Source of the DNA: Eunapius fragilis
Taxonomy: Eukaryota > Porifera > Demospongiae > Spongillida > Spongillidae
Assembly: GCA_963681505.1 (NCBI GenBank)
Contig: OY811972.1
Coordinates: forward strand, 1,663,432 to 1,727,431
Direction of reading: 5' to 3'
DNA length: 64,000 nt
The notes under the pieces were generated by a model. That model searched no databases. It was not told the origin of the DNA and saw only the letters and a list, made by a program, of their open reading frames with translations. This document shows positions 1,981-60,696 of the stretch, piece by piece. The position numbers and the translations under genes are program-made. Each line of letters opens with the position of its first letter. Position 1 is the stretch's first letter.

Positions 1981-2243
1981 TCACACACAAGAAAGATTAA
2001 TTAAAATCTTTTTTAAGACATCCACCAGAGTTGACCAAGTTACTGGGACCAAACCCTTTCCCTGAAGCCATCGACTTAGTATTGCCATAATGATATCATC
2101 AGCATTCCGTCCGTATTCTTTCTCCAGTGCTGGAACAATAGCTCCAGTTTTATCCTCCAGCAGATAAATACCAAAGATGGAATACTTTGCTCCAACGTGA
2201 GTAACAACCTTCAGTTCTAACAGTTTGGGCAATGTTGGTATTT
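1981..2243 (-). CDS. Death-domain terminal exon (copy 1)
   Basis: The exon starts after a pyrimidine-rich acceptor ending CTAACAG and reads EIPTLPKLLELKVVTHVGAK, then SIFGIYLLEDKTGAI, to a stop after the helix TWSTLVDVLKKI. The pattern of a tryptophan within A-I-L-x-x-W-L, then a conserved T-W-x-x-L-V-x-x-L helix, is typical of Death domains. It is about 86 residues and fully open. The first two bases complete a Glu codon left by the 3738-3780 exon. The exon is almost the same as 48066-48313 and is a relative of 20753-21000 and 23446-23623. It is a likely last exon of the NHR-Roc-COR gene, judged from strand, order and phase. Confidence 0.7.
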
Positions 2244-8200: not shown

Positions 8201-11200
8201 TTTACTTGTAAATAGACAGTTCTGTTTGGGGAGTACAAGATAACTATCAGTATTTATAGGAACAGACTAGACTGTAGGTAGTAAAAAGCTTTGGATGCCC
8301 CTCAAAATATAGTTAAATGATCTCTCAGAGTCCCTCATTCAATGCACTGTACAAGACACTCACTGACCTGACAACTGTGGCAATTCTTTGGTTATGTGTT
8401 CTAACAAGAACTGGATAGAAGAGGGACAGTGTTCTGTAAGGAGAGACCAAACAAAGGGAACTGACTAACTTCATTTCGCATTTTCTCAATGAGCTGGCAG
8501 TACAATGTATGCTAAATAAAAGGCTAATATTTAATCATTCTGGCATCTTGATTTTGCATGTAGTTTGAATGGGAAAGAGTGTCTGTAAATAGCGGAACTA
8601 GGCTGCACTGGGGGCTCTAGACATAGAAGAAGTATATTTATTTCAAGCAGAACTGTTAACCAACTGCTGCTCAGTTGGCAAGGCTTTGTGACAGCATCAT
8701 TTAATAATACATTAATCACCAGTTTATGATCTATGGAAGTGTTATAGAACATTACCTGCTCTGCTTCTCTTTGAGGAAGACGAAAGTTCTTCAGATGATA
8801 GAATAAACAAAATGGTGGTATTTGCATGGCAGAAAGCAAATGAGACTAGTCCATCATAATCAGGTGCCTTATAATTTTATCCCTATAAAACATTGTACAT
8901 TGCATAGATCTAAATCAACATTATATCGCAGTTTGCCTAATTTGCCTAATTGACTTTGCACAGCAATAATCAAGTACATTCAAGTAATGAGATGAAAAAA
9001 AGCTACAGCCCTTCTCTAATCACGTAAACTTACAAAATTGGAGATACCGTAAGGTATCGTTCCCCTCCGGCCCCAAGGGGGAAAAACAGGCTCGTGTTTA
9101 AACAGGTGCACCTCCGTAACCGTGAATGTCTCCGCTAATTTGTTTAGCGTGTCAGGATGTAAAATGGTTCACATACATGATTATAAAAAAAAGTTACACG
9201 GAAGCATTTTGCGGTTACAAACCATTATTTTTTAATGGGGGGCGAATAAGTGATACTTTAACCTGATAGGTTGGTAAACATCGTACTCATGGCAGCAAAA
9301 ATAATATATTGAGCACCAAAATGGATTCCCATGGAGAGAAATGGTGTGAGAGCAAGCAAGAATAAGAAAAGTGGTATGGTTGCACAGAAATATTGATTTA
9401 TGTAACATGCAATTCTATAGTACACAAGGGTGATTTGCTGTACACTGTCCCATATAGTGTTTAGCAACCATTACCTGAACTTTTTCTATTTGTTGTTGAA
9501 GATTTTGTGTCTGTATATTAAAAAAAAGTTTAATTATAACAGAAACTTCACGAAAAAAAAAGAGCTGATCTGATCAAGTTATACTTATAGCCTTAATCAT
9601 CATTATAGCTACGATGTGAGGGCCACTGGTGATTGGCATCCTTGTCAGAGTGACACTAACATATCAAATATAATCAGTGGATATTTCAGGAGCAAGTCAT
9701 TATTATCTGATCATGTTATATTGTGTTATCCACAAATTGATCATGCAACTGACACACAAAGAATAATGAGAACAAAACTTTTAAAACTAAGCAGAATTGC
9801 ATGCAGAGACATTAAGTGAATATCTAATACATTGCAATACAACTGTCTCACAACCATGGCTTCACTACACCATACCAACTGCCTGGTCAGGTAATTTAAT
9901 TGAAGCATGTAAAATATATGCCTTCCAACACATACCTTGCTCTTCTTCCTTTGCAAGCCAAACAGTATGTCTGGTGGTAAGGGCCATATCACATGAACAG
10001 AGTTTACAAATTGCGGATCTTCTTCATAAGGTATGGCTACACCATTGCAAGACTGTGTTGTGCAGATAAAACCATCTTTTAAGTCCCAACTGTTGAAATG
10101 AAGAAGCTTTGCACTATGCTGTATACCATCATGGATAAGCTTTTTAATTCTAGGGCATGCTTTGGTGCTGTTTCCTTCAGTAAGGTGCACCTTTATGCCG
10201 TAGGTTACTGAGTCAACTATGGTGAATTTAGCAGGAAACCTGCTATACATAAACGAAACACAATTTCTATACAGACACGTTGGGACTTTATCATTCTCAA
10301 CCAAAGTGCAGGTACCCTTCTGCTGTAGGAACGCTACCAAGAAACTGAATACCCCATATGGTACACATTCATTCGGAAAACAGACAAGAAATGGATCAAC
10401 CTTGCCATGTTCTATAGACATTTTATCAAGACTCAGTGGACTCAAAAGAGCTGGCATCAAGAAGTCACCATTTTCCAAGGAAACCATAATACAGTGATAA
10501 CACATCAGTTCTGTAAACTGCTCAACAGTAAAAATTCCACCATCACAATGCTCTTTAAAACACTCACGAGACAGAAATTCATGGCTAACTAAAGCATGAT
10601 CCCTAAACCTAGAGCACCATCCAGCATTCACACCTGTACAATTAGATGATGCCTTTTCGTCATCCTTACCAACAAGCTCATGTTTGTACTGGACTATGGC
10701 TGTGATGATCCTCAGGATGACCTGGGGATCAGAAAATACTACCTCCCTAAGACCTGGTACATTATGGTACCAAAGGAAAAGGTTATATTTGACCATGTGG
10801 AGGAGAGCTGCCTCCAAGCCTTCCTCGTCTATACCCAAGCTCTTTGCCAACTCCAGGCACCTTTTCAGGCTCAAAACACCTTTTGTAGCAGACACCTTTA
10901 TCTGCATCTCGAGAGCAAACCATTTTAAAGGAAGTAGAGGTGGAGTGCTTTTGCTTTTCCTGCATTTTGCCTCAATGTCATTACTGCACTCTTTCACGAT
11001 TGACTCCCTTAGTGTTTTGGCAATTTTGTGATCCATCTCATTAGGAGCATTACCATCCACCTCCCAAATTATCTCACTCCCACTTTTGCCAATAAGAATA
11101 TCTACATTTACCACTTTTCTCATGATCTCATCCTTGATGTTCTTCTTCTCAGAGCACAACTCCTCCTTATCTCTGTGCGTGCCCACTACAAAGAGGTGAG

Positions 11201-14200
11201 GATGGACATCTCTGGCATGAGCTGCCCTCACACACTGCTCCAGCACCTGCTTGTGGGAGGATGGAGATGTGTATGGTTTGCCTACTGGTTTGCAATCTTG
11301 TCCATAGAAGTGGATCTCTGGGCGGTGATCTAGGCTTTCTGAAAGGTTTACAGCAAAGAGAATGGCAGACACATCTTGGACAAAGGCTGGCAAGAGCTCA
11401 AGGAACTGGGGCTGACCACCACTGTCAATGAAATGAACCAAGGTCATTTTCAAATTCAACTTTTTATCTATTGCATTTTTGAATGCCTTAATAAATCGGC
11501 TATTAACACTCTCAGTAGCATGCTTATCATGCAGCCTATCCTCCCTAGGAGGCTCTAATGGTGCTCGCTGCTCAACAGGTTGAGATGATGGGAGCTCAGT
11601 AGATGGAGTTGATGATACATTGACATCTGGGTTTGAAACCAGATTTTCTACAGAGCGAGATGGTTGCTGATGTTCAGTTGGTTGTGGAGATGCCTGTGTT
11701 ACTGTGGGAGCTGTTGGAGGCAGTGGTGAATGCTCCGTAATTTTATAGGCATTAGCAAGAAGATATATTAGCTTGGCCTCATCCAAAACTTCCCAAATAC
11801 TACTATCCTTATCCACCCTTGTTAGTATGGACTCGACAGAACCCACAAATGCCTGCACAGGGTTATCCGCTAGTCCAGTGCTAACACGACCAGTGTGTTT
11901 GTCAGTGCTCTCTGACAGGAGTAGCCTCTTCAGGTGAGTCTTCCCTACACCTGCTATCCCAAGCACCAGACATTTGATAATTGACATTTCAACTGAACCT
12001 TGCTTTATGGCTTCTTCAAACAACTGCTTTGCCCCTAGAGGAAAAATCTATTTACAGTTTTACTTTTAGGCACTGTTTCACTTATTATTGTAATGTCACA
12101 TATATACAAAGGCACAGAACAGAGAGTACCTAAAATGAATCTAGTGTGGTGCCTGTTTACAATAATAGCATTTATTTTTTAATTTGTAAGCAATATATTT
12201 CTTGGTAACTGTTTGCAAACCAATGCCTGCATACCTACATGGTCAGCAGATAGTTTCATCCTGAAAATCCACAATATGACATTCTGCTTTCATACAGTTC
12301 ATTAGTTACAGTTATGATTATTTTAAAAGTTTTATTCCATTCTGTAAGGCAAGCCATAATTTTTTTAAAAGCCCAACCCAATTAATGGAACAGCAGCTAT
12401 TATGCAATGCACTTAATCAACACTGGTGATTACCCACATATGCATATGCTACTGAATATATGCATGTGTGCTTTACAAAACGAGCAATTAACAGCACAGT
12501 GGCGGGAAGGGGAGGTTGACCACGATCAATTTTGACCATATATGGGAGTCCATAAAAATTGATTGTGAATTTCATTGCAAACCCCCCTCCTCTGTATCCG
12601 CCACTGCAGCATAATCACACTTTTAAAACTGCTTCTGTTACTTTAGACAAGTATAACTGTACACCTAATCACAGAATAGGCTGTCACTAGCAGGAAGATA
12701 AGGAACCCATTGATATAAGGTTAAGTCATCACATCAGTGGCATGAATGAAAGCAACATGTGTGTGTGGGTCACTCACTCTCCCAATCAAGAGCGTCTTTG
12801 TTGTCCTCCATCACATGAAGTGGCTCATCCTTTTCCCAAGGTATCAGTGGTCTCAGGGATACCTTTACACACTGGCCATACAGGTCCACCAAGCCATACA
12901 CATCCTTGGGGACAGTGCAGGGAAGTCTGACCATGTGGACACCATTGAGGAAGAAGTGCAAGGTCCCAGAGCTGGTGTGGAGCAGGCCAACTGTGTCCCC
13001 AGCCTTCAGACCATGGAGACCAATGTCACCAGGCAGTTGGCCCATGTTCTAAGAAATAGGGCTGAGTAAATATTGCAGGATGCATTCAACTTGACATGCC
13101 AATATTAATGCATGCAATAATTCTAATTACATAATTTTATGATGTACTTTGGATGGTCAGCAAGTATAGCTGCTAGTCATGTTAGCTGAACGAGTAATGA
13201 AAACATTCTCTATGAAAAAGTTGGTGGCAAATAAGGCAATATTGGTGTAAAAAGGAAGGAAACAAGGGTCTATTATACGAAGGGGAAATGCCTATATTTC
13301 GCACACAAATGTAATGTCCTACAAACGGGCGAAATATAGGACTATTATTCATTTTCCCTTCCTATTAGACCCTCTTGTTTCCTTCCTTTTACACCAATAT
13401 TGCCTTATTCAAATCCTATATGCCACCAACTTTCTATGTTTTTACTACTTGTTTCATTTTCTGATAATAACACGGTGTCCAATCGGGCTGAAAGAATTAT
13501 TTAGTTGCAGCAGACCCTCCCCAGATATGAAGATGGTGTATTAGGTGGTGTGAAAGGAAAGAAACAATACTCTAATAAGAAGGGGAAATGTATTGTTTGC
13601 ACGCAATTACATTTCCCCGTCTTATTATACCCTTGTTTCCTTCCTTTTCTTCCAATCCTGTATGCCATAAAAAAAGTTTCTATTATTTGTTCCATGAGTT
13701 TTTTTCTTCATGAGATGAAGATAATAGCTAGGCTATTTACATTAGTGGTGCTGTACATCATTCTCACACACTCCCCCACCTGTAACACTTGACCTGCCTC
13801 AGTTTCAACACATTTTGAAAAAAAGTAATTTTAACTAACTACTAGCTTTTACTAACACCCATATTAATATCCTGTGGACATGGTGTCCAATTGGCCTGCA
13901 ACAACACATAGTTCCAGCAGACCCCCTTCCCAGGGTGGTATATCCGGATCGATCCTCCAAATGGTGTCTACTTGTGGAGGTGGAAGTGGGGATTGCATCT
14001 GTCACGGCTGATTTTGTCCTATCCTGAAACGGTCATAGGACCGTTTCAAGCAGCCTATTTTGGTCTCACAGACTGGTCCTAAGACCATTTTATGCTGTTA
14101 TGTTGGCCCCAGTCTGCTCATTTTGGTCCTATATACCGCCAGACAGCCTGAAACAGTCTCAGGACGAAAACTGGCTGTCTACACGATCATGTATAGACCA

Positions 14201-14734: not shown

Positions 14735-15479
14735 TCATACATGATTTATATCCCCCTGATAGTAAGAATCTATTCATAATATGACATGCCCCTCCAGCCC
14801 CCCCCCCCCCCCCCACCCACACACACACACAATTACACCAATGTTTAAAAGCATACCTTTCCTCCAACACAGAGAGCTGCAAACTTCTTGCTGGTGGATG
14901 ATGTAATGACAAAACTCTGCCCTGACAACTCATCTGCCTTGTCCACAGATACCACCTCATAAGGGGGTAGTGTGGTGACCCCAATAGACAGAGAGCCACT
15001 CCTTTTAGAGTCCATCTCCACTACTTCGCCCTGTAAAATGGAACAATCAGTAACTTAAGAAAACATCCCTACTAAATGGATATCTATATGTACCCTGCAT
15101 TATTACATGATATATTCCATCCATTAAACTCTAGCTAGGTCACAAACTGCTATTATTTAAATGTACCTATGGGTGCATAGGTCATGAAATGTGGAGGTAA
15201 GGTTTATATAAGGTAAGTAAGTGTTTCATTATACGGGTGATGGTAAAAGAGATTTTGTTACATGAAATTTACAAACACATGTAGATGGCCACGAGTGTAA
15301 GCCAGTTATGTACATTGTTCAAGGACTCTACATACTACTTCACCTGGAAGAGCATGTCACAAGGAATAGGAGTAGATGTGACCACAATCCCTTTGGAGCT
15401 GCCATTAACCCTGTGGGCTGATAGTCCATCAAGATCAAGTCTGATGTTATCTCCATGGGAGGAGGAAAAGGTCACCACT
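1981..15479 (-). CDS. NHR - Roc/COR GTPase - Death protein (multi-exon gene)
   Basis: The proposed minus-strand gene has exons 15479-15344, 15030-14857 and 13048-12778 (NHR domain), 12034-9936 (Roc GTPase and COR-like region), 9510-9475 (coiled-coil piece), 4167-4126 and 3780-3738 (short helical exons), and 2243-1981 (Death domain and stop). All have AG/GT borders and compatible phases: NHR exon 3 ends in phase 1 and completes an Arg codon with the GTPase exon, and the tail exons run phase 0, 0, 0, 1 into the Death exon. About 1000 residues are covered. The true N-terminus is not found; the first NHR exon needs a preceding exon ending in phase 2. By family, NHR binds proteins or ligases, Roc-COR is a dimerising GTPase and Death recruits partners, so a cytoplasmic signalling scaffold is likely. 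The tail exons are duplicated and a fossil retroelement lies in the intron after 9475, so which tail is used is uncertain. Confidence 0.65.
2336..2550. repeat. Foldback MITE copy
   Basis: Long inverted arms (left from 'acattctcgatgagaaag', right ending near 'tttttacctcaatt') around a short core with the mirrored motif 'cctatattt'...'aaatatagg'. The right arm is truncated and fused to unrelated sequence at about 2548. Confidence 0.7.
3335..4800. repeat. Duplicated gene tail, copy 1 (with MITE at 3335-3600)
   Basis: Collinear with 8018-9480 and, in decayed form, 45660-46120. It starts with a foldback MITE subfamily copy at 3335-3600 (arms 'aacaagtaaagaaaaatg'...'ttctttacttgtaaat'). On the minus strand it carries exon 3738-3780 (FLLEHITKELPQLS, acceptor 'cttctatccag') and exon 4126-4167 (HLKNFRLPQREAEQ, acceptor 'tttattctag', donor GTAATG). 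The copy stops at about 4800, where the fossil retroelement begins. Confidence 0.75.
4803..7990 (+). mobile_element. Broken Ty3/gypsy-type LTR retrotransposon fossil
   Basis: A degraded plus-strand retroelement. A primer-binding-site-like stretch (tggtgtcaggaatgg) begins at 4938, next to a possible short 5' LTR remnant. The parts follow in gypsy order: a gag-like region from about 5040, a CCHC zinc knuckle near 5750-5800, an aspartic protease at 5839-6222, reverse transcriptase pieces at about 6740-7020, RNase H at about 7090-7300, and an integrase core at about 7440-7960. Integrase lying after RNase H supports Ty3/gypsy rather than copia. The element is clearly broken, with at least half a dozen breaks, and no 3' LTR is recognised. 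It lies between two direct copies of the host gene tail. Decay suggests an old insertion; the age cannot be set without paired LTRs. Confidence 0.85.
8018..9480. repeat. Duplicated gene tail, copy 2
   Basis: Direct repeat of 3335-4800, including a MITE (8018-8215, left arm truncated) and both short minus-strand exons. These are 8368-8410 (same FLLEHITKELPQLS reading) and 8756-8797, or 8756-8788 if the inner acceptor is used. In this copy the acceptor AG before CATCTGAAG is changed to AT, so splicing would have to use the AG nine bases further in, giving NFRLPQREAEQ. The segment 9280-9420, 'LALTPFLSMGI', resembles 4650-4790. Confidence 0.75.
9936..12034 (-). CDS. Roc GTPase + COR-like exon of the NHR-Roc-COR-Death gene
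   Basis: This is a single 2.1-kb exon of about 699 codons, with acceptor 'ttttcctctag' and donor GTATGTG. Near the start is a P-loop (GIAGVGKT) after a beta strand (IIKCLVLG). About 190 residues on is the switch II/G3 motif DSGGQPQFLELLPAF, and then a G4 motif of the THxD type (VVGTHRDKE). The spacer between P-loop and G3 is long and rich in Pro/Ser/Gln, which is unusual for Roc. After G4 comes a COR-like region (LPLKWFALEMQ, then LVVFSDPQVI-like beta segments) as in Roco proteins and related NTPases. The protein should bind GTP and act in the cytoplasm. There are no leucine-rich repeats or kinase domain in view, so this is not LRRK itself. The exon joins the upstream NHR exon at an Arg codon (phase 1). 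Confidence 0.8.
12497..12606. repeat. Short hAT-like MITE
   Basis: About 110 bp with ends cagtggcgg ... ccgccactg, a common terminal motif of hAT-type MITEs. A clean 8-bp target duplication is not visible, so the mobile origin rests on the inverted ends alone. It lies in the intron between the NHR and GTPase exons. Confidence 0.5.
12778..15479 (-). CDS. NHR (neuralized homology repeat) domain in three exons
   Basis: Exon 15479-15344 reads VVTFSSSHGDNIRLDLDG, then AHRVNGSSKGIVVTSTPIP; exon 15030-14857 reads GEVVEMDSKRSGSLSIGVTT, then FVITSSTSKKFAALCVGG; exon 13048-12778 reads NMGQLPGDIGLHGLKAGDTV, then GTLHFFLNGVHM and VYGLVDLYGQCVKVSL. These match the NHR fold seen in Neuralized: the starting F-x-x-x-H-G-x-N block, the S-x-x-IGVTT block, and the D-x-VGL...FxxNG...VYxxxDLYGQC block. 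Phases are 0/0 between the three exons and phase 1 into the GTPase exon. Neuralized NHR domains bind Delta or other partners; here there is no RING, so a protein-binding module on a GTPase is the better reading. The splice into the exon before 15479 is not identified. Confidence 0.8.
13196..13465. repeat. Foldback MITE copy with flank shared with 22970-23340
   Basis: A near-perfect long palindrome: left arm with 'aaaacattctctatgaaaaa', right arm with 'ccaactttctatgtttttac', core 'gggcgaaatatagg'. This copy and its right flank (to about 13550) are the reverse complement of 22970-23340, so the repeat unit is larger than the palindrome. Confidence 0.75.
13541..13700. repeat. Foldback MITE copy, shortened
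   Basis: Same arms as the 13196 copy but with a reduced core and a missing outer left arm. The flank at 13860-14010 again resembles the flank of the 13196 and 22970 copies. Between 14010 and 14650 I see only short hairpins built on 'ggtcctaagaccatttt'-like units and no exon. Confidence 0.65.
14688..14731. repeat. (GT)n microsatellite
   Basis: About 20 GT units in the intron between NHR exons, followed by a C run and a short CA run at 14796-14832. Confidence 0.9.
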
Positions 15480-18060
15480 CTGGTGGAGGAGGGAATGGAG
15501 AGATATAGTGGGGTGGAGATTAACACACACACCCAAGTGATGAAACTATTATAATCACTTTATGCTAACCACTGAGGATAACATACCCTTCAACTTCCAT
15601 TTGCTTATCATTCTGTGGGTAGAGATGCACACATAACGTATATCATCAGACCAACTAAATTTAATAAGAGCTGTATTCTATTTTTTTTTACAGCCTTCTA
15701 AAGAATGACAGCGATTTGAGGCCATTAAAAATTTGGACATTAGGCCTCCTCACAAATAATTATGTAATGTCCTAGCAACAGCATAGCAACCCTAACCATG
15801 CACGAGGCTATATATGAACAGGACTCATTCAATCACCATTTAAAAGCATAGAACAGTAGACACCACCATTGCTCTATTAAAGGCCTAAATCACATGGCTT
15901 TGTTCTTTTCTTTACTATTGCATATATCATTTGAAAACGGCCACCTTTCTAAGGGTGTCTTCACTAAGGTGAGCTCTTTCTAGCCCAAAAGCCGTTTTAG
16001 AAACCAAAATAAAAGCAGAAAGCTGAAGGAGACAAGTGGATAACTCACTACTTATATTGCTCCTTTGACTAGCGTTTTGGTACCGGTAGATGTGAATGAA
16101 GTACATGAGTATGGCGCATGAGTGGCTATTAGGTTATGTATAGAGTTTAGTAATATGTATAACTAATGTCATCACAATTTGGCACCTGTACTCTACATGG
16201 AGTATCCAAGCATTAAGGTATCCAAGCAGAGTGTACACTGAAGTTGGTCAATAGTGAGCCAATGAGCAGTTTGTGGAGCTTACTGTAGCCTAATGGAACG
16301 GCAAAAAGTACCCACACATTTGTACATGTATACATGTAAGTGCAGACATCATGCTTTGTCATTTGCCTCCCACCTGAACATGACGGTGGAAGCATACAGA
16401 TATTTCAATCAAATTTGCAATAACTAGGACATATGAGATGGAAGGCCTGCTGTCCCATAGATCCCTCACAATCTACAGTTTCTGGACCTTCACAGTCTCA
16501 ATTGTTATCCATTGAAAGTACTTGGCCGACTACAACAAACTGCACTGCACTACTGTACTGCATTGTAACTAGTGTCAATTACACATTTTAGATGGTTCTC
16601 CATGATGATGTGTGCTGACCTCTTTGAAAAACTGCAGGGCATTTGTGAAACCAACTCAAAGTACACTCTTCAAAAATCATGGCTCGATATCGGTACAAAA
16701 AAAGGACGTGTACTATTAAGAAACATAATGTAGAGCGGGAGGAGGGGGTGTGGCATTCCACTGTCCTTGCACTGGTATGATATTTCGGCCATTTATAAAT
16801 TGCCTAAAAATTATTGGTCTTGAGACTTACACCAATTGCAAATCACCAGTTAGTTAAAATCAATTATTCTGGCTCCGCCAAATAATAGCCTCCACCACTA
16901 TGTCTTAGTACAATATACTACAATTGCGCCATCTATATTCATATAGTAGTAAGCCTGACCACTTGTATATTACATCAGCTCTGGGTACTGCTCTAACTGT
17001 ATACCAGCCGGGATGAAATGAGGAGCACATATTCATGTGGAACCCTTCCAGAAAGGTCAAAACAGATGAGAACAAAAGAACCATAACAACCATGGGGCCC
17101 TGCTCTGTAGTAGATCTCTTATCTACCTCAGGATATAGTATTCATATATGCTGCTTATATCTATTCATGAAGGGGTACAGTGCTACATGTGCATGTCAAT
17201 CTGCACTTAAAAGATCTGTTTCACACAAGAGAATACAATGTGACTACTTTTAAAACATGTGCCATCAATATTAAGGATACTTCAATAGTTCATTCCAATA
17301 TATTGGTGCCGATCGAGAAACACAACGAACGTCACAGTTGTTAATGTTATCATTGACAATTATTTTTAAAATAGAGGAAACAAGTAAAAAAAACATTGTC
17401 TAATGAGAAAGTGGGTGGGATGTAGGAATTGGAGGCAAAGGCAAAGGTAGTATTAAAAAGGAAGGAAACAAGGTTTTTGGCAAGGGAAAATGAGACAAAA
17501 GCCTATATTTGTAAATGGCACAGAACCAAAAATGCAGCATTATGTCTCTTTTTCCTTTCTCCCAAAACCAACATTCTAGGAGAATGTTTTTCTTGTATTA
17601 CAGCTATATATGTGGATTGGCTTCATCTTGGACCAGCCACAGTAGCCAGTTTGGTTGGTAGCAGAACCCAAGCCATTGGACTATGGTGGCCAGTAGGTGT
17701 ATGATTGTGCATTTACCCTCAAGTCCTATCTGCACCACAGTCATGAGCCATGACCAATGCATCATGCCTTGGTTACAGGGCATTTTCATAAGGTTCAGAA
17801 GACCTATTTTTAGCCATTTTTACACCGGTGCGAATTGAAACTGGAAGAGGAGGTGAAGAGTTCATGCTGTGCCTATATGTTTAGAGAAATTAGGCAGCAT
17901 TATATGAGAGTGAAAGCTTTGGCTTCAACCTATGTTCTGTAAAATAAGTCTATTTATTATAAACTGCAATGCTATGCAACGTGGCAAGTGATACATGTAC
18001 ATGTATGTGGATACCTTAGACAATGCAGTACCTTTAACTTCATATATACATATACATATA
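15480..18060. other. Intron-like stretch without an assigned exon
   Basis: No convincing exon was found on either strand. A small exon that moves the reading phase from 0 to 2 should lie here if the 18724-18912 exon belongs to the NHR-Roc-COR gene. It contains a foldback MITE fragment at about 17384-17600 ('aacaagtaaaaaaaacattg', left arm only). Confidence 0.5.
17384..17600. repeat. Foldback MITE copy, right arm lost
   Basis: The left arm (ttggaggcaaaggcaaagg, then 'aaggaaggaaacaaggtttt') is recognisable; the right arm is only partly kept ('tctttttcctttctcccaaa') before it fades. Confidence 0.55.
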
Positions 18061-19068: not shown

Positions 19069-19308
19069 CTTATATTCTGGGAGAACTTTACGATGGCAGT
19101 CCTTGCATTTCATTCCTTCGTCATATCTAAGCCCACGCCATTCGTTGCCATATTCACACTTGTAACCTACGCGTTTTGACTCAGCTCTAGATCCACACCT
19201 GATGCACTCCGCATACAACACCGCGGTGTAGTAGGGGGTAAGGATCTTCAATTGATGCTCATCTGCATGTCATGCGATGTTGCATTGTTTACATTCATAA
19301 GTTAACAT
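19069..19308 (-). pseudogene. Zinc-ribbon first exon with an internal stop (paralogue A)
   Basis: Homologous over its full 240 bp to the intact zinc-ribbon exon at 49547-49786 and to 56911-57148, with the same phase-0 donor position (EYK|GTATGT). It starts MLTYECKQCNIA, but the next codon, Trp in paralogue C, is TGA. One zinc-ligand cysteine is also changed (KCEYGNEW instead of CQCGREW). Upstream sequence to about 19440 still resembles the promoter side of the 57148 copy. Either the exon is dead, or translation starts later, or the base is a sequencing or allelic variant. It lies on the strand and side expected for the first exon of the NHR-Roc-COR gene. Confidence 0.6.
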
Positions 19309-19599: not shown

Positions 19600-21060
19600 C
19601 GATGGGGTTGTGAGACAATACAACAAAAAAATAGGTTTAATTTGTCTGACATTGCTATGCTGTGCCATGTCTGTGGACATTCCCCCTTAAGGGCTATTGC
19701 TATAACAAAATATGGAGTCACGAAGTGACTCAGTTGCAAAGCAATGGGCAACACTGCATTAGAACCCCCCCCCCCCCTTTAAGTCTCATACAGTGAAAAG
19801 CTACACAAGTGACCCGGTTAACCAACTAGTGAGACTACACCACAGAGGCATCTCACTACGTCTGCCTGACATTTGCTGTGTACATGATCGAGTCATGAGC
19901 ATGGCTACTCCCACCTAGAGGGGCATATGGCTATTTTGCACAGTTTACAACTATGTAAGTGACAAAGGCCCAATAAATGCATCAAGGCTTCATATCTAAT
20001 TAAGTGACAACAATTTTGGCTTTCCGGCATACACAAAGTGCTCTTCTCTCTCTCTGTTTGTGCATTTATTATTTGTAATGTCTGAATAGTGTGATGTGCA
20101 AAAGTCTAACACGTCGGTGGTTGGACATGCAGAATTTTGTTAGCCCACTATTAATTATGGACTAAATTATCACAGGCACCTGAAAATGTAATCAAGGATA
20201 TTCAGGTTGTTGCAGCAAATAGGGATTAACTTTTTTTTTAAGACTGCAAATGTTAAAGTCCCCAATGTCACAACAAAATGACTCTTTGCGCACAGAGAAT
20301 AATATACTGCGGAGTTTATTTTATTTTTAAGTGAATTAGCCATAGACTTGAATGAAAGCATTACTTGTTCAGGAAAGTGGCATAATGTAAATGTATGTGT
20401 TAGAAATGCATGGACTAACTGTCCAGACGCTAGTCCCCTGTATTTGTGTGATCAAATAAAGGGGATGAATTCGTTAGGTGGGAACCACATGCATGTCCCA
20501 TTAAAACCTCCCAGAAATAACCAACCTAGCTGATTGCCAGAAAGTTTCCTATATTCTGTGACTGTACCTATTGCACCAACCACTTCTGACTGGATGCACT
20601 GGTGAAGAGACCACGATGTGTCTAAATTAAATTTCGCCTGTCTGCTGTTCTGTCTTTACAACTATATACAAACCTTTGCACATCAATTTCAGTTACATTC
20701 ACACATGAATTAAAATATAGTCTGTTTTCCATGTACAGATTTTAAGTCACATTCAATTCTTCTTTAGGATATCCACCAGAGTTAACGAATTCATTGGCAT
20801 CAAACCCTCTCCGTGAAGACATTGTCTTAGTATGGCCATATTGATATCTTCACCATTCTCTCTGTGCTCTTTCTCCAGTGCATTGACAATGGCTCTAGTA
20901 TTATTCTCCAGCAGATAATAGTACCAAAGATGGAAGAAATACCTAGCTCCAATAGGAGTAAAAACCTTCAGGTCTAAAGGCTTGGGCAAAGCTTGTATTT
21001 CTGTTGAGGAAGTGGTGGGATTGGGATGGGGGGGGAGGGGATGCACGCGCAGTGGAAGGC
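19600..21060. repeat. Segmental duplication, copy C (diverged)
   Basis: Follows the same order as 190-2240 and 46425-48390 (for example 'aataggtttaatttgtctga' near 19631 against 'caataggtttgtctgacatt' near 213) with many more differences, ending with a Death-domain exon. It is the oldest of the three copies by divergence. Confidence 0.75.
20753..21000 (-). CDS. Death-domain exon (paralogue D, probably part of a decaying gene)
   Basis: Open from an acceptor (gttgag side, ...CAACAG) to a stop. Reads EIQALPKPLDLKVFTPIGAR, then LLENNTRAIVNALEKEHREN, and ends LTLVDILKKN. Compared with 48066-48313 it has an insertion in the FG/WYYYLL stretch and has lost both conserved tryptophans (RQCLHGEG for RRWLQGKG; MNSLTLVD for TWSTLVD). 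The frame is intact, but loss of core residues and the broken exon upstream suggest relaxed constraint. Confidence 0.5.
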
Positions 21061-23340: not shown

Positions 23341-23445
23341 AAATTGTGTCAATGTATGTTGATACAGCTTGTAGTTTTGCATCCACACCTGAATACTTTG
23401 TAAAGTATCTATGAGGGTTTGCCAAGCCACTGATCATGACCTTAC

Positions 23446-23623
23446 CTTAGGAGTATGGCCATAATGATTCGGTCAGCATTCCTCATATGTTCCATTTCCA
23501 ATGCTTGCATTCTGACTTCATTAACATCCCTTAGTAGAAACATTCCAAATCTAATATAATTCACTCCAATGGCTGCAGAATTATTCAATTCACAACTCAA
23601 CAGTTGTAGAGGAGTGGGTGGAT
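23446..23623 (-). CDS. Divergent Death-domain exon split by an intron (paralogue F)
   Basis: After an acceptor (tttctcatcag) it reads PLQLLSCELNNSAAIGVNYI, then RFGMFLLRDVNEVRMQALEM, EHMRNADRIIMAILLR, to a donor GTAAGG. It aligns with the first two thirds of the other Death exons and keeps their entry phase (1), but ends in phase 2 where they continue uninterrupted. The rest of the domain is not found; a MITE occupies the expected place. This may be an older exon arrangement of the family or a fragment. Confidence 0.5.
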
Positions 23624-23739
23624 CTGATGAGAAAGGTCAAGCTGACAATTCATTGTATGTATGCATCATTGTGTTATTTATTTAACCGCATCATCCCAGC
23701 TATCATTGTTTGTATCAATTATTAAAGAACTTTATTATT

Positions 23740-32406: not shown

Positions 32407-43911
<11,505 letters not shown>

Positions 43912-45400: not shown

Positions 45401-45414
45401 GTATAAATGCAATA

Positions 45415-46075
45415 TTTTTTAGGACATCCACCAGAGTTAACCAAGTCACTAGCGTCAAACTCTTTCCCTGAATCCATCATTCAATATGGCCGTTTTGATA
45501 TCTTCAGCATTCCATCTGTGTTCTTTCTCCAATGTGTCAATAATGGCTCCAGTATCATCCTCCAACAGTATGTACCAAAGTCAAGTTGAAATACTTCACT
45601 CCAACATGTGTAACAATCTTCAAGTCTAACAGGTTGCACAATGTTGGTGGTTCTGTTCGGGGAGTACAAGATAACTATCAACATTTATTGGAACAGACTG
45701 GACTAGCTTAGGATGTCCCTCATATTATGCACCAGTGAGTGGGGATCTCATGCACTGTTCCTCATGCAATGCAGGTACAAGACACACACTGACCTGCCAA
45801 CTGTGGCAATTCTTAAGTTAGACATTCTAACAAGGGCTGGATAGAAGACGGGCGTAAGGAGAGACCAAAGAATGAGAACTGCCTAACTTCATTTCCCATT
45901 TTCTCAATGACCAGGCATAGATGAAGTATATTTGTTTCATGCAGGGCTATTAAAACCAACAGCTGCAAAGCTCTGTAACAGCATCAGCTTATGATCTATA
46001 GAAGTACTATACCACATTACCTGCTCTGTTAGGAAGACAAAAGTTCTTCAGATGTTAGAGTAAACAAAATGGTGG
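45415..46075 (-). pseudogene. Decayed Death-domain gene tail
   Basis: Contains, in order on the minus strand, a relic of the LKNF exon (46020-46065), of the LLEHITKELPQL exon (45795-45838, now with a stop), and of the Death exon (45415-45660). The Death relic starts EPPTLCNLLDLKIVTHVGVK, then loses frame after a few more residues; its second half is in another frame. The arrangement matches 1981-4167. Confidence 0.75.
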
Positions 46076-46123: not shown

Positions 46124-48390
46124 ATAAAAACATTCTCTATAAGAAAGGTGATAGGCATATAGCAATAGTGATGTAAAAAGGAAAGAAACAAGGGTCTAAT
46201 AAGGAGAAATGTAATAGTCCTGTATTTCGCATGCAAACATAATGTGCGAAATATAGGACTATTACATTTCCCCTTCTTATTAGACTCTAGTTTACTTCCT
46301 TTTTACACCACTATTGCCTTCCAATTCTATATAAGGTTTTTTATTACTTGTTTCATCTGTTTTTAATTTCATCATGTAATGAGATATAGTAACTAGATAA
46401 GATCATTTAATTTACATCAGTGAAAAGACAATACAACAAAACAATAGGTTTGTCTGACATTGCTATGCTGTGTCATGTCTTTGGCCACTTGCCCTTGAGG
46501 GCTGTCAAAATAGAAATAAGTGAGCCAATTGCAGACCAACAGGGCAATGGGCTGTGGGGAGACAACACTGCATGAGAACACCTCCCCCTTGTCAACCACA
46601 GACTAAACAATTATACAAGTGACCCAGTTCATCTAAAAATAACTAGTGAGACAACATCATCTCTAGGTCTGCCTGTACAGAGCACGCCATTTTGCAGTGT
46701 ACAACTATATATCTTATAATTTGGCCTCCACATATATAAAGTGCTCTTATTCTGTGTGGGAGGGCATTATATAGTTTCCATTCTTATACTGATATAGCTA
46801 GGTAGTAAATGTTACAAAGTCTGATCACACACAGGGCCATAGCCAGACGGGGGTCATAACCAAAATAAACCCGTAAAATTGGTGTTAAAATCTGATTTTA
46901 CTAGCTATATTACAGGTTCCCTTGGTCCCTGACACAAATGTAGGGAACTAGCTCTGTATGTTCAATTTCAGTAATGAGCAACTTCTCTGCACAGTTAGTC
47001 CATGTGTGCACATTTATTATAGCAAAAAAAATGTAACATGCATTTTGCCACTGTCCTGGACAAGCAATGCTTTCATTTATATTCATGGCTAATTCACTTA
47101 TAAAGTTTTTATTTTTAACTCTGTGATAAATAGTTTAATTGAATTCTCTGTGCGCAATGAGAGGGCATGTCAGAATTTAAAATTTGCAATCTTGAAAAAA
47201 GTTAGATCCCTTTCTGCTGCAACAAACCAAATAACATTTTCAGGCGCCAGTGCTGCAGTGATAATTTAGTTTGGATAATCTAAATGTTAAGCATTTCAGT
47301 GCACATCACCACTATCAAACCATTATCATGTCCTAAAGCAAATTTGAGGCATTAAAAGTTGTTCTGAAGAATGCAATAGCTGTTAAATGTATGTGTATTA
47401 GCAGAGAATTTTTGGTGTCGTAACGGACAGAAGAGCGACCTTGATGTCAAGGTTTTCAATCCTTTTGCTAAATTTTATATAAAAGAATCATTGACAAGAA
47501 ACATGCCTATGAAGCCGGAGTTTGTGAAGTAGAACTTGGATGTTTCACAACACTGGTGTTTTCAACTTCTGGTGGGTTAGATCCTGCTGCTAAACCACTT
47601 ATTGCAGAAAAGCACGATCACCATACAGCCAACCCTCATTTGGCTTCGTACCAAATTGAGCTTTTTGTTCCTACGTTGTCTTCATCGCTCAAGTATCGTT
47701 GCTGCATGACCGCTTTGTCACCATGCATGATAACCAGAAGTGGTTAATTCGAGGATTAAAGATATAGGTAATTTATATACTTTTATTTGCGTTAATTTAT
47801 TCATGATATGCTGGAAGGGGGGTGTCCGGACACCATGGACCCCCCCCCCCCCCCCCCCGTATCCGCCTCAGGACAACCAAATTAGCTGATTCGATGTTAA
47901 AAGGCTTCCTATTTTCTGGCTATCACTAACCACTTCGATTCTAATTGGATGCATTGGTGAATTGTCAAAGTTGCATGTCGAACATACAAACCTTTGCACA
48001 TCAATTTCAGTTACACTCACACACAAGAAAGAGTCTGTGTCCATGTACATAGAGGTGTTTCAAATTCACATTAAAATCTTTTTTAGGACATCCACCAGAG
48101 TTGACCAAGTTACTGGGACCAAACCCTTTCCCTGAAGCCATCGTCTTAGAATTGCCATATTGATATCATCAGCATTCCCTCTGTGTTCTTTCTCCAATGC
48201 TTCAACAATGGTTCCAGTATTATCCATCAGCAGATAAGTACCAAAGATGGAATACTTTGCTCCAACATGAGTAACAACCTTCAGGTCTAACAGCTTGGGC
48301 AATGTTGGTATATCTGTTGGGAAAAAGGGGTGAGGAGTGGGGGTGGGGTGGTGGGAGGTATAATTCATACTGATTAAACCATCAGTTCAC
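46124..48390. repeat. Segmental duplication, copy B (with MITE at 46124-46354)
   Basis: Collinear with 1-2330. It carries a complete foldback MITE (arms 'acattctctataagaaagg' and 'ataaggttttttattacttg'), the LINE-like fragment, a poly-C tract at 47838-47858 and the Death exon of the intact zinc ribbon-Death gene. Differences from copy A are a few percent plus several indels. Confidence 0.82.
47480..47755 (+). pseudogene. LINE-like ORF fragment (duplicate)
   Basis: Duplicate of 1447-1715; reads HAYEAGVCEVELGCFTTLVF, STSGGLDPAAKPLI, then drifts. Same comments on family as for the first copy. Confidence 0.35.
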
Positions 48391-49786
48391 TACATGTAAC
48401 AGTGCAACCATTAAAATAAACAGAGCTGGTGTGTTTATTGAAACAGACTGGATTGTTTGTAATACTGCTTTGGTTGTTCTCATAATACAGTTAAAGTTAA
48501 ATTATGTCAGTGGGTGCCGCCTACATGTAACTATGATTTCATGCACTGTTCTTCATTCAATGCACAGTAAAGGACACTCACTCACCTGCCAACTGTGGCA
48601 ATTCTTGGGTTATGCGTTCTAACAAGACCTGACTGCTCCCCTCAATCAGGCTCATGCGATTTGCTATCAACTGCTCCTTGGACCTCTGAGAGACCAATTC
48701 ATTCCTCACGGGCTCAGCCCAAAGCCTAGCAGCCGGCTTAGCCAAATTGAATTGTGCAGGAGTAATCTACACAAAAAACAAAGGTAAATCCTTCTCATTA
48801 AATTGGTGGCACGTAATAATTGTCTGTAAATAATACAGACCTACATTGTGTATATGCAGCCTTTTCACTATATTCTGTGAATGTCCTTATTGTCAAACAG
48901 TTCTAAAGGGCATTAATTTTTATTCCTAATATAGTACCAAATGGTTTGGCAATGTAAGTGCTGCAATTACCCTTTTACATTATGCTTGTCTTTAGTACTG
49001 ACATCAGAGTATATGGTCAGGAGATTGTGCCAATGTTCTATTTATATTGTAAATCTATTAGCGTTATTACTATAATATAGTTGCAAATCAAATACGAGGG
49101 CATCATCAATAAAGTTGAGCACGCTTACATGTCACATGTCTCAAAAATTAATGCTGCACTGCTATAGAATGGAACCATTGAGACATACACAAATCTAATG
49201 CTGATTCTGGAAAGACGCGGTTATAAAGTTCAAGTCAGAGATTTGAATGAGAGGATGGAGGGAATGGGTATACCAATACTACATGAACTAAGAAAGTGGT
49301 GTGGTGGTGATGATATCATGGGGATGGTGATGATATGGAGATGGTGATGTGATAATGGCAATGTGATGTGGTGATATGTTGATGGCATTATATCATAATA
49401 TGGTATACACCACTGCTGCACCTTTTATGCAATGGGTAAACACTTGCGCACAGGAGTTAATGGTACGCATGATGGTACACATGATGAAGATTGACCATCT
49501 GGTTGAGGGTTAAGGGGAAAAACAACACTTCAGTGCAAGCCCCTACCTTATCTTTCGGCCACACTGGAAAACCACAACCATAACAAGCTAATCCTTCGTC
49601 ATTTCTTAAGGCCTCCCAGTTGCGGCCACAACGAAAGCACTCGTAGCCTACTTTCACTGACACTGCTGTAGATCCACAGTTGTAGCACTCTCTCGTAATT
49701 GCGCCATATTCACGCCCGTCTAAGTTATAAACATCCATAGTCCATATGCGGTCGCAGGTTCTGCATTCAAAAGTACACCGTGTCAT
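48066..49786 (-). CDS. Zinc ribbon - helical linker - Death protein (three exons, intact)
   Basis: Minus-strand exons 49786-49547, 48766-48586 and 48313-48066 give 222 residues with perfect phases (0, then 1) and AG/GT borders. Residues 1-80 have four CxxC-type pairs: CRTC near 6-9, CYNCG, CFRCGRNW and CYGCGF, as in tandem zinc ribbons; WEALRNDEGLACYGC is the best conserved block of the family. Residues 81-140 form a charged, probably helical linker (NLAKPAARLWAEPVRNELVS, then LLERITQELPQLA). Residues 141-222 form the Death domain (THVGAKYSIFGTYLL, AILRRWLQGKGLVPVTWSTL, VDVLKKILM). The ATG at 49786 is chosen because it aligns with the start of the 57148 paralogue. The fusion suggests an adaptor that senses or binds through zinc and assembles through Death; the function is inference. 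Confidence 0.78.
48775..49540. repeat. Intron with family-wide homology
   Basis: The intron between the zinc-ribbon and linker exons. About 48775-49090 is shared with 59240-59600 and 21470-21830. The part 49280-49400 is a TG/GATG-rich simple repeat. No extra exon is seen. Confidence 0.65.
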
Positions 49787-49809: not shown

Positions 49810-50309
49810 GACCATATGTCTAGTCCCCAGTCTGACAGTGCCGTAATACCGTATAAAATGAGCACGATAAGATATTAATATTAACTTAAACTGTAGAAAC
49901 CATACGTATAATGTTTAACCATATTTTATGATACGTATTATATGGCCCAAAAATGAATATGTCTAGCATTATGACACCCACAATGGCTCAAACTAAATGG
50001 CGCCAGTACGAATCCCAGGCCATGCGATTCACCACAGCCCCGGATCCAACATAGGTTACCCCCACTCATATGAAATTGAAATGCCGCCCCTCTGGCACCA
50101 ATTGCCTCCACGCACCATACTATCATGCAAACACACTTGCGGCTGCCTCAGCCTGACCAGCTACATACCCATGCACTCTCACACACGACACTTAAAGAGG
50201 TAAATGAAACCCTAAACCTGAAACCCTAAACTTCTCATGCCATCCAGGCGCGGACGTAAGAAGGGAGCGTGGCAGTTAAAGAGAGGGTGGGGGGGGGGGG
50301 GGGGGGAAG
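49810..50309. repeat. Upstream region with dispersed repeats and a poly-G run
   Basis: Holds the promoter side of the zinc ribbon-Death gene (to about 49950), a copy of the 'tatgaaattgaaatgccgcc' repeat also at 29690, and a G run at 50289-50306 into whose end the hAT element inserted. Confidence 0.55.
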
Positions 50310-50681: not shown

Positions 50682-53158
50682 CTAGGAATAGTCAATTTCT
50701 CGAACAAGTTCAGATTCTATGTTCAATATTGCTAAGCTCGATAATCGTTCTTGATCCATAGTCGAGCGGAGAGCGTTTTTAATTCTCTTCAGGTGGCTAA
50801 ATGACCGCTCTCCAGTACAATTTGATACTGGAAGAGTTAAGTATATACGCAGTGCAATGAATATGTTAGGAAAGGCACTTTCGACACGGTGTTGTCTTAA
50901 AGTGGACAGCATTTCATGTGCCGGCCTTCTCGATGCATCTTTTGGATACAAAGCCTTCTCAAATTCTGTCCACTGCAACCATTCATCAAAAATTTCAGCA
51001 TCAAGATCATCGGAATAGAACGATGTTAATCGAGACAAGGAATCTTTTACGGCATCAAAATTCTCAAGTTCATGGTATCTTAAGAATAGAAAACGAGTGT
51101 CCGTTTCTGAATATGCACGTATTCTGTTGTTGAGATCGGTCACAATACGATCAAGTATAGCGTAGAACGTTTCAATTCTAAATTTCTCTTCTGAAGACAT
51201 CACAACATCAGGCTCACTAGAATCTCCAAAGACGCGCTTTGCTCGTCGCACTCGCACTTCTTTAAAGCATGGAGTCTTGCTAACAGCAACTGCTCTAGTC
51301 TTATAATCATCAAACAAGCTTCTTTGAGCCTCCAGAAATCCCAGAAGAGACTTCAATACAGCAATAGCAGATCCTATTTCTATGGTAGTGGACTGGAGAA
51401 GCTGGCTGCTTTCGTGAATTCTTTGAAGCAGTGCACTCCAAAACACTGTCATAAAAACTGTTTCCAGTGTGTCCATTATATTTGCCATTGCAAGTGCTTC
51501 AGATCGTGTATCACACTTTTGCAAGGGATCGTCAGCAATTTGCTGTAAAACATCATGGTATACCTTATAGTGCAGAGACAAGGACTTCAGCGCGTCCGAT
51601 CTACTAGACCACCTGGTTTCACAAAGCCGTTTTGGTAAAAGTGATCTTTCAACTGCATTGACAGCACTAAGCAATGTTCTCAAAAGATTCCAACGATTTG
51701 TTGAGGCAGAAAAAAATACATACAACTTTTCAACAAATCCAAAAAATGATACAGCGTTGACACAAGATTCTGCTACTGAGACTCTTGATAGATTTAACGA
51801 GTGTGCCATGCAAGGAATGTAAGACGCTTTATTATTTTCTTCCAACACCCTGGCCTGCACACCAGAATACTTTCCCGACATGTTGCTATAGCATTGTCAT
51901 ACGATTGGCCTCGACAATATTTATTATCTTTGAGATCAAGCCTAAAGTCTTTAAGAATGTCGATTAATAGTGTTGAACAAATTTAAACCAGTGTGGGAAT
52001 GTATTTCTTCAAACTTAAAAAAACGCTCAGTTGGTATTCCAGCGTCATGAACGTAGCGAACTGTAAACGTCAGCTGGTCCGTATGTGAGATGTCTGGTGT
52101 TGAGTCAACGCTAAACGAATAGTACTTTGCTGAAGCAATCTCGTTAATGATAACTTGCCTCACTTCCTCTGCCATGAGCAAAACAAACTCTTCACATATT
52201 GTAGATGATAATTAAGATGGATTGCCACGTCCCCTATTACCATATTTCTCTATGTGTTGTGCAAGAAACGGATCATATTCAGAAAGCAACTCTAAGCATC
52301 CAAGGTAATTTCCGTTGTGCTCTGATCCAAAAACCTCATTGCTGCCACGAAGAGCTAGTCCACGAAACGTAACTACTGAAACTTCTCTTCTCAAAACCTC
52401 CTTCCAGTATGAATTTTCCCTTGCATAACTACCTATGATACACTGAGCGGCCTATTGTCTCGTGTTTTGCTAGGCGAATAGCATACTTTGAAAGAGATTC
52501 TCTGTGTTGAACAGAACGTTCATGATCATTAAGCCGACCAATATGATCCCACGAATCAAAACCTGTTGTTGCTAGACTAGAGGAATTGCTTGCACTATTT
52601 ATAGAAAACAGTTTGCAGACAAAGCAAAACACGCATCCTGTTGATGGGGAATACATCAACCAGTTTCTTTCAACCTTTTCTCTATTTGGAGACAGCGTTG
52701 TGAACACTGTATCATTTAGCTTCCTACATGGGCCAGACAGAGTACACAGCATTATATATATTATTTATCTCATAGATTTACATGCATGTATATAATGACA
52801 TGCATGAACTGCATTAATAGTACTATGACGCATAGTTGCCTACATAGCGTGTACATTTACTCGCTCTTCTTTTTATATTACTTTCTTTGCATGGCAAGTG
52901 AGAATTTGACATTGTGTGAATTATATACGGCTGCGGAGCGTGCAAATGCGCAATTTACCTGATTGACTTTCCTTGCCTTGTAGAATTAGTATATACTCCA
53001 TCCCTGTTCCTACATAGCTCTGGACCGACTCGTAGCCAATACTGTATCATGCTCTCACTAATAGACCACAGAGCAGGATCAGTTTCCATCTGATGGAGGA
53101 ATACTGCACCATCTTGATGAACTGTTTCAGTGACATCTTCGCATTGGGAATTATCCAT
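50682..53158 (-). pseudogene. hAT transposase (TTF-zinc-finger type), broken
   Basis: Start ATG near 53158; exon 1 reads DPALWSISESMIQYWLRVGP, the N-terminal block of ZMYM/TTF-type hAT proteins. An intron of about 230 bp (donor GTAAATTG, acceptor catgtag) leads to the TTF finger (MYSPSTGCVFCFVCKLF, then HERSVQHRESL). Next comes the RNase H-like core with VDSTPDISHTDQLTFTVRYV and CRGQSYDNA, then the long frame 51881-50682 with YIPCMAHSLNLSRV, LCETRWSSRSDAL, and the C-terminal dimerisation block NIFIALRIYLTLPVSNCTGE and SFSHLKRIKNALRSTM. There are a frameshift near 52.4 kb, a stop near 52.21 kb (Tyr position, TAA) and a frameshift near 51.93 kb, so this copy cannot make a full enzyme. Confidence 0.88.
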
Positions 53159-56910: not shown

Positions 56911-57148
56911 GCCGAACCGTTCTATTGCAGTCATCGCATTCCAATCCCTTGTCGTACCTAAGGCCTTCCCATTCTCTGCCACATTGGCATTTGTAATCTA
57001 CTAGTTTTGACACTGCTGGAGATCCACACTTGATGCACTCTACCCACATCCCTCCGTGGACCCAGGAGGGGCCATAATATTTTTTAACCATTTGATGCTG
57101 TTCCGCATGCCATGCGATGTTGCATTGGCTGCATTCAAACGTAAACAT
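56911..57148 (-). CDS. Zinc-ribbon first exon (paralogue C)
   Basis: ATG near 57148, then MFTFECSQCNIAWHAEQHQM, then MWVECIKCGSPAVSKLVDYK, CQCGREWEGLRYDKGLECDD and CNRTVRR. All eight cysteines are present and the frame is intact to a possible donor GTACTATAT in an AT microsatellite. No linker or Death exon follows in order: a MITE, the hAT insertions and the complete paralogue B come next. It is probably a stranded first exon, or it could splice to something not recognised. Upstream bases to about 57260 resemble those of the 19308 copy. Confidence 0.5.
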
Positions 57149-58329: not shown

Positions 58330-58965
58330 CACAATTCAAGAGGATTTTTGGATTTCAAAGTGTAGATGTGGATTGGCAATGACATTTGCAGTTGAACAGC
58401 GACCATACGTTCAAGTCTTACATGATAACACCCAGAAACATTGATTGATTATTTCCAATATAAGAGCAGAGAATCCTGCATCAATCCTTATATATGACAG
58501 TCTTTTCCATCAGTGCTCTCCATACGTCCAGAAGCAAGAAGCCACTATTACCCGGACCAAATCAAGTGAAATAAATGTTCACTTTGTGGATGTGCAGCGC
58601 GTCAAAGTGGAGGTGGTGATTCTGGACTTTTTGCAATTGCATTTGCCACTCTATCTGTTTTGGAACCCACCCAGAAACAAAGTTTTATTGTCAGGCAAAA
58701 ATGAGGCAACATTTGATGAAGTGCATTGAAGAAGGTGTAATGACAGAATTTCTAGTGCAGCACACAAGATGCTGTACAGCTAAGACAAAGAAAAAACAAG
58801 TCATAAAGGTTTATTGTGTTTGCAGAATGCCTAGGATGGCACTTGAAGCTATGATTGCCTGCAGTCAATGCAAGGAATGGTATCATGGTGACATTTGTAT
58901 TCAAGTCCCAAAAAAGGCATGGAAGCACAGTACCAAATGACTATGTGACAAATGTAGTGTGTAGT
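58330..58965 (+). pseudogene. Ulp1-type cysteine protease + PHD finger relic
   Basis: Reads YVQVLHDNTQKH, then TGA where the catalytic-site Trp of the Ulp1 His-Trp pair belongs, then LIISNIRAENPASILIYDSL. After a one-base shift comes SGGGDSGLFAIAFATLSVLE, matching the Ulp1 D-C-G-x-F-A block with Ser in place of the catalytic Cys. After another shift comes the PHD-like finger VYCVCRMPRMALEAMIACSQ and CKEWYHGD, with its last CxxC (LCDKC) behind another TGA at a Trp position. Ulp1-PHD proteins of this kind are spread widely as transposon-related families in sponges and cnidarians. Two frameshifts, two stops and the missing Cys mean it is dead. Confidence 0.6.
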
Positions 58966-60690: not shown

Positions 60691-60696
60691 TAAAAA

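Follow-up and report, generated by a model that had tools for sequence, protein, structure and literature searches.

In a 64,000-nucleotide (nt) stretch of the genome of the sponge Eunapius fragilis (the window: contig OY811972.1, here C2, positions 1663432-1727431, in a genome of 218.9 Mb on 24 contigs), a predicted three-exon gene at window positions 48066..49786 (reverse strand) joins an eight-cysteine zinc ribbon (ZnR) to a divergent Death domain through a linker. We put at about even the chance that this is a shortened paralogue of long genes grouped locally, in which ZnR, Neuralized (NHR), Roc/COR-like GTPase (ROCO), linker and Death exons follow one another. This is its best reading since the middle of that layout, NHR and GTPase, is missing from the gene and since five of the seven ZnR loci in the genome precede such exons. 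Its likely kin are thus large cell-death receptor-like genes, of which it seems a shortened version, and not like a wholly new kind of protein does it stand apart from them. How the exons lie in the DNA, which genes surround them and to which families they are related was observed directly; transcription and splicing of the gene are predicted from the DNA.

Structure of the zinc ribbon-Death gene

The gene is composed of the following elements, all on the reverse strand:
49547..49786, reverse: exon 1, ATG and ZnR, 80 amino acids (aa) with four CxxC pairs (240 nt; donor phase 0, AAG/GTAGGG)
48586..48766, reverse: exon 2, linker, 60 codons plus 1 nt (181 nt; phase 0 to 1)
48066..48313, reverse: exon 3, divergent Death domain and stop (248 nt)
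47796..47801, reverse: first AATAAA 3′ of the stop, a candidate polyadenylation signal

The joined open reading frame measures 669 nt (222 codons plus TGA), and both introns have a GT donor and an AG acceptor, confirming the exon coordinates, phases and 222-residue join that a sequence-only reading of the window had proposed. Exon 1 encodes nine cysteines, eight of which form the pairs C8/11, C34/37, C50/53 and C68/71, in agreement with the eight-cysteine zinc ribbon of that reading, and the 222-aa protein would likely hold two zinc sites. The open frames exceed what chance would give: exon 2 is open in a single frame of the three, the one that fits the join. As background, overlapping stretches taken across the whole window, genes not excluded, were open in a given frame in 1471 of 18234 cases at 181 nt, in 893 of 18218 at 240 nt (the length of exon 1) and in 851 of 18216 at 246 nt (exon 3 minus two bases). 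A chance origin of the ZnR open frame was considered and rejected, since the copies of the exon and its omega of 0.17 (see below) argue against it.

The last 17 or so codons of exon 2 are common to ‘K-tail’ exons of other copies, in which the phase of the exon 2/3 junction also recurs by eye. In the genome searches the exon 1/2 junction had a single example, at this locus, where the two exons lie 780 nt apart. Because this junction is found at one locus alone and the gene was read from DNA, the earlier description of the gene as intact holds for the DNA only.

Copies of the exons in the window and the genome

The ZnR exon has seven genome matches including itself (12 candidates, all scored), and all of them lie on C2 between 1.33 and 1.75 Mb, in one 0.4-Mb stretch. 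Within the window, ZnR exons number three and Death exons five, as the earlier reading had counted. Besides those of the gene itself (whose Death exon was matched at 48069-48314), these are:
56915..57148, reverse: second ZnR exon, open, with a microsatellite at the expected donor position (by eye) and no NHR or GTPase exon 3′ of it
19069..19308, reverse: third ZnR exon, with an in-frame TGA, which would be the 5′ end of a decayed long paralogue
1999..2244, reverse: Death exon (by homology) with which the long paralogue ends on its 3′ side
20759..21001, reverse: Death exon (by homology), with a broken linker copy at 21291-21421
23445..23624, reverse: Death exon (by homology), partial, with TAA in one reading
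45411..45647, reverse: Death exon (by homology) with four in-frame TGA

The ZnR copy at 1582 kb, outside the window, is split. In three divergent ZnR copies the third CxxC pair is replaced by CxC. The linker has two genome matches including itself, the other long copy (917 kb) carrying a TAG; short copies of the linker tail are also present in the regions fetched. The Death exon of the gene's subtype has at least 150 genome matches (150 scored of 175 candidates). In the other copies, linker and Death exons stand either behind a GTPase exon or alone. Exons matching the Pfam Death family likewise number at least 150 genome-wide, at places that by eye differ from those of the gene's subtype, and two large Death expansions are therefore apparent in this genome.

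Zinc ribbon loci at the head of long genes

At five of the seven ZnR loci, the ZnR exon is followed on the same strand and within 12 kb by a third Neuralized exon and a Roc/COR-like GTPase exon, with Death exons further on at some of the five. The two loci lacking NHR and GTPase exons are the gene at 48066..49786 and its neighbour at 57 kb. The proposal of a local family was thus borne out in that a family exists locally, while its members are mostly not small adaptors. One long paralogue lies in the window, between the third ZnR exon and the Death exon at 1999..2244:
15587..15612, reverse: small 26-nt exon, phase 0 in and phase 2 out (by eye)
15344..15479, reverse: Neuralized exon 1
14857..15030, reverse: Neuralized exon 2
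12773..13048, reverse: Neuralized exon 3, given as its open stretch, donor approximate
9744..12047, reverse: Roc/COR-like GTPase frame, 768 aa, the last part of which looks frame-shifted against its relatives
8369..8434, reverse: K-tail linker exon
3739..3804, reverse: a further K-tail exon copy, closer to the Death exon

When joined, the NHR exons cover Neuralized positions 1-147 of 149 (E 1.1e-27), and the GTPase exon matches COR-A (3e-4), AAA_16 (7.7e-4) and Roc (0.013) in Pfam, all below the cut-offs. Genome-wide, 44 matches to Neuralized exon 3 were found, and 144 to the leading 297 residues of the GTPase exon (132 scored of 193 candidates, some exons being counted in two pieces). The 26-nt exon, running by eye from phase 0 into phase 2, precedes NHR in three units (window 15.6 kb, 1439.8 kb and 1334.8 kb) and, starting in phase 0, fits the phase-0 donor of the ZnR exon. 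About 1.8 kb separate ZnR from Neuralized exon 1 at 1336 kb. For the long genes, splicing is predicted from phase, order and homology, and ZnR-NHR-ROCO-linker-Death is the likely local parent layout.

We considered that NHR and GTPase exons might be hidden in intron 1 of the small gene or just upstream of it. This was rejected, as between 47 and 64 kb of the window no GTPase match was found at E ≤ 1 and the best NHR match was no better than E 0.18.

Two further features of the long genes were observed. Stretches about 100 kb apart (C2:1558828-1585005 and 1662130-1684432, the latter corresponding to window 1-21000) form a segmental duplication with ZnR, NHR, GTPase, K-tail and Death exons in common order, the main GTPase pieces being 96-98% identical and the last piece 69%. 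In relatives, the end of the GTPase part (L037 2-604, forward; L038 1195-1452, reverse) carries a cysteine-rich CxxxxC ... CxxC stretch, which may be another metal site, ahead of the Death exon.

The last exon as a divergent Death domain

The name ‘Death’, given to exon 3 in the earlier reading, stands for a divergent relative and not for a direct family match. The exon by itself was without a Pfam match at E ≤ 1. For the complete protein, a scan to E ≤ 10, in which filters discard the majority of matches above about 0.1, listed no Death family. The cut-off of PF00531 was not reached by exon 3, and three of 28 relatives matched it weakly (best E 0.0035). When an alignment of the 28 members was compared using hhalign with one of 20 exons from the same genome that pass the Pfam Death cut-off, a probability of 95% over 67 columns was obtained, with an E value of 3.7e-8 that applies to one single comparison. 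Because of this relationship to the Pfam-Death exons of the same genome, exon 3 is accepted on sequence grounds as a divergent Death domain. Searches of PDB, either at E ≤ 10 with the 28-member profile or with the Death exon alone, returned no Death chain. A structure model of the exon, made together with three window copies, placed three helices in the C-terminal half at low confidence (mean pLDDT 50.6).

Likeness of the zinc ribbon to Shiftless

With the whole 222-aa protein, the Shiftless family UPF0515 (PF15135) was matched at E 0.001 and 19.0 bits, the cut-off of 29.8 bits not being reached. The match spans profile positions 108-191 of 271, the N- and C-terminal remainder of Shiftless being absent. 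The Shiftless (SHFL, C19orf66) structure 9kbo was found in PDB at E 0.0064 with the whole protein and at 0.051 with exon 1 alone; residues 5-77 of the exon align to its residues 109-183, with the four CxxC pairs in order (pairs matched by hand). The likeness extends to an aromatic residue after the first pair and to the end of the exon, CYGCGFPVWP against CYGCGFPVYP in Shiftless. In contrast to Shiftless, the exon 1 protein is joined to a Death domain and is without the RNA-binding arginines. These are Arg131, 133 and 136 (PMC9604422), and they face E33, Y35 and G38 of exon 1 when the cysteine pairs are matched by hand.

A true Shiftless-type zinc ribbon, in a protein that binds RNA as Shiftless does and ties RNA binding to a Death signal, would be compatible with other readings of the locus, and we regard it as unlikely. 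The order of the CxxC pairs, the exon end and the UPF0515 match argue for it, as do the shuffling experiments: the gene's exon scored 85, while 2000 cysteine-preserving shuffles reached 71 at most, the score of the 1745-kb ZnR copy was reached by 18 of 2000, and the five-copy ZnR profile scored 42 in hhalign against a null maximum of 25 in 100 shuffles. In hhalign, 0 of 100 shuffles reached the scores of one, two or all five sequences. Furthermore, the one match listed in a genome-wide UPF0515 search was a ZnR copy, that at 1745 kb (E 0.021, 20.5 bits). However, Shiftless had been picked as the best match before the shuffle tests, the three divergent copies did not exceed their shuffles (reached by 481, 627 and 698 of 2000, and in hhalign by 6 of 100), and the gene's exon minus its last motif was reached by 53 of 2000. 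Since the gene's own exon was missing from its list, the genome search cannot have been exhaustive; among 14 control genomes, moreover, that of an archaeon gave a match below the cut-off. UPF0515 remained below the Pfam cut-off in every scan made and other families came level or ahead: with exon 1 alone HypA was almost level (0.0026 against 0.0021 for UPF0515), on the 1745-kb copy Zn_ribbon_8 and TackOD1 scored ahead of UPF0515, and the best family match among the five ZnR copies was DUF7129 (3.8e-6). A PDB search at E ≤ 10 with the five-copy profile listed neither Shiftless nor any sensible match, and the placement of E33, Y35 and G38 opposite the arginines also speaks against RNA binding of the Shiftless kind. 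Taken together, the likeness is a lead and not membership. A search for ZnR relatives in viral contigs gave 64 pattern matches, of which 0 were confirmed.

A probable difference in age and constraint between the two ends of the gene

Between the ZnR exon and its nearest copy, synonymous divergence (dS) was 1.87, near saturation, with a nonsynonymous divergence (dN) of 0.32 and a ratio of the two (omega) of 0.17; for five other ZnR pairs with the gene's exon, decayed copies included, omega ranged from 0.40 to 0.83. The Death exon gave dS values of 0.07-0.14 in five comparisons. A dS of about 1.9 at one end against 0.07-0.14 at the other indicates that the two ends of the gene differ in age. The comparisons support constraint on the ZnR exon, whereas the linker and Death exons appear close to neutral, with little or no purifying selection on the protein. 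In our reading, the ZnR exon is probably old and under constraint and the cassette next to it younger, although a young look of the cassette could also result if Death exons have undergone gene conversion.

At codons where at least three of the four other copies agree, others being left out, the gene's Death exon has 0 private changes and the four other copies have 17, 15, 6 and 4. Its branch is short (0.014) in a tree with mostly weak support. Intron 2 beside exon 3 diverges from the two closest copies by 0.165 and 0.129, exceeding exon 3 itself (0.074 and 0.082). Compared with the 917-kb copy, exon 2 has zero indels and a divergence of 0.088, against 0.302 and 0.207 for the introns beside it, the alignments of which may be partly non-homologous. 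We count the faster divergence of the introns, the lack of private changes and the short branch in favour of a shortened paralogue.

Weighing the shortened paralogue against other explanations

Several observations weigh against the reading as a shortened paralogue. On the ZnR tree the branch of the gene is longer than that of its nearest copy (0.324 against 0.215). Omega is 1.04 for the linker against its one other long copy, and 0.47, 0.74, 1.13, 1.13 and 1.41 for the Death exon against five copies. Divergence of the Death exon from its two closest copies (0.074 and 0.082) is about that of the 3′ flank (0.069 and 0.067), and the same comparison shows an indel at the end of the exon, by the stop. 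Model confidence is low at both ends of the protein, the ZnR exon, modelled from one sequence, having a mean pLDDT of 43.8 beside the 50.6 of the Death exon. A repeat ends 93 nt upstream of the ATG. The parent layout has gaps of its own: in the 1743.7 kb unit, the 280 nt ahead of Neuralized exon 1 showed no small exon; the Death exon closest to the 1745-kb locus is truncated; and for the 1336-kb locus, where the region examined stops short of the 3′ end, placement of the Death exon is uncertain.

A rival explanation takes the locus as a young remnant, in which the ZnR exon of a lost long gene stands by chance before a duplicated linker-Death cassette, with no selection and no working protein. 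The near-neutral linker and Death exons fit this explanation, and so do the decay around the locus (the TGA in one ZnR exon, the split ZnR at 1582 kb, the stops in Death exons, the TAG in the linker), the repeat and transposon directly upstream, and an exon 1/2 pairing seen once in the genome searches. Yet all three exons are open with matching phases and good splice signals, exon 2 is open solely in the fitting frame, the Death exon has no private changes, and the ZnR exon has evolved with an omega of 0.17 since its split from the nearest copy; we hold the remnant to be less probable than a shortened paralogue, though a serious contender. A smaller chance still, and a slight one, is given to the exons belonging to different transcripts, the ZnR exon starting one gene (perhaps with unrecognised exons) and linker and Death forming a separate or dead 3′ end. 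The linker-Death cassette at window 20.8-21.4 kb, its linker broken, indeed has no ZnR directly upstream, the 917-kb linker has neither a ZnR nor a Death match in the 10 kb fetched, and the 57-kb ZnR copy is also without an obvious partner; but exons 1 and 2 are separated by 780 nt alone, and the acceptor of exon 2 is good and fits in phase.

Under the reading as a shortened paralogue, an old zinc-ribbon first exon would now directly precede a younger linker-Death cassette, the NHR and GTPase exons being absent. If transcribed, the gene would encode a Death-domain protein of 222 aa that probably has two zinc sites and lacks a GTPase switch. Its ZnR may keep a binding surface once at the front of the long receptor-like proteins, and its Death domain may pair with the Death partner of those proteins and so promote or block their signal. 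A cut-down adaptor or decoy, with binding partners of this kind, would be the most likely role; as for the immune or signalling function suggested earlier, we infer that it may apply. If expressed, the gene would let one 0.4-Mb stretch show how long receptor-like genes can give rise to a small Death protein, and the window would also offer a decayed long copy to compare it with; if not expressed, it would be an ordinary fragment of a decaying gene array. Confined to one subcluster of a cell-death receptor family with 144 GTPase matches, the ZnR head would be a locally added part, for which the partial resemblance to Shiftless offers a concrete binding hypothesis. More speculatively, and improbably in our view, the Shiftless-like ZnR may be a sensing head added before ROCO-Death receptors, with the present gene as a two-domain short form that couples or blocks the sensor at the Death step. 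Were this true, an antiviral-type zinc ribbon would be linked to programmed cell death in an early-branching animal; sponges are not known to have interferon.

Comparison with known systems

Small Death-fold adaptors and decoys such as FADD and the CARD-only and pyrin-only proteins include shortened relatives of longer receptors. The predicted protein resembles them in being short and having one Death-fold domain and differs in having a zinc ribbon as a second domain. In ROCO kinases of the DAPK1 type, Roc-COR is followed by a Death domain on the C-terminal side. The long paralogues likewise combine Roc-COR and Death, but no kinase or ankyrin match was found in the scanned exons and NHR and ZnR exons are present instead.

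Work on NHR/ROCO/Death-type proteins, often with TIR, in oyster and centipede (PMC5094078) and in Aplysia (PMC9334734) mentions Neuralized, Roc, COR, Death and TIR domains alongside one another, although the accessible parts of these two papers hold no statement that one protein contains NHR, Roc, COR and Death all together. Neuralized is described as a SPRY-like domain coupled to Death-like effectors (PMC8195603). The local long paralogues resemble these invertebrate proteins in carrying NHR, Roc/COR-like and Death exons in one order. The short gene shares with NHR-ROCO-Death genes the linker and the same Death subtype at its C-terminus and differs in being without NHR and Roc/COR, and no zinc ribbon is mentioned for the invertebrate proteins in the available text. 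An open-access literature search, which leaves most subscription papers outside its scope, found no zinc ribbon before NHR/ROCO/Death or joined to Death alone. Within the sources covered, combinations similar to NHR/ROCO/Death have been reported for other invertebrates, while for the addition of ZnR and for the short form no published report was found. The ZnR is an unusual N-terminal domain in the local family.

Surroundings in the window

Two features lie directly upstream of the gene:
49879..50287, reverse: the repeat mentioned above, sharing 92% identity with a stretch at C2:1.42 Mb (422 aligned columns)
50685..52764, reverse: pieces of a hAT-type transposase, as open frames (Dimer_Tnp_hAT E 1.6e-10 on 50685-51896, the sole piece scanned)

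Elsewhere in the window, the two K-tail copies in the long paralogue flank frames (5839-7965, forward) that have retroelement-like motifs and are presumably of that origin; the sole stretch scanned gave no Pfam match. A 1032-aa frame at 26091-29186 (reverse) has a weak 2OG-Fe(II) oxygenase match (5.8e-5, below the cut-off), and a long frame at 32410-35181 (reverse) combines leucine-rich repeats with a rhodopsin-type seven-helix domain (LRR_8 5e-43, 7tm_1 6e-17). A PHD finger barely above the Pfam cut-off lies at 58620-58937 (forward), and exons of a POT/PTR2 peptide transporter at 60694-63678 (forward).

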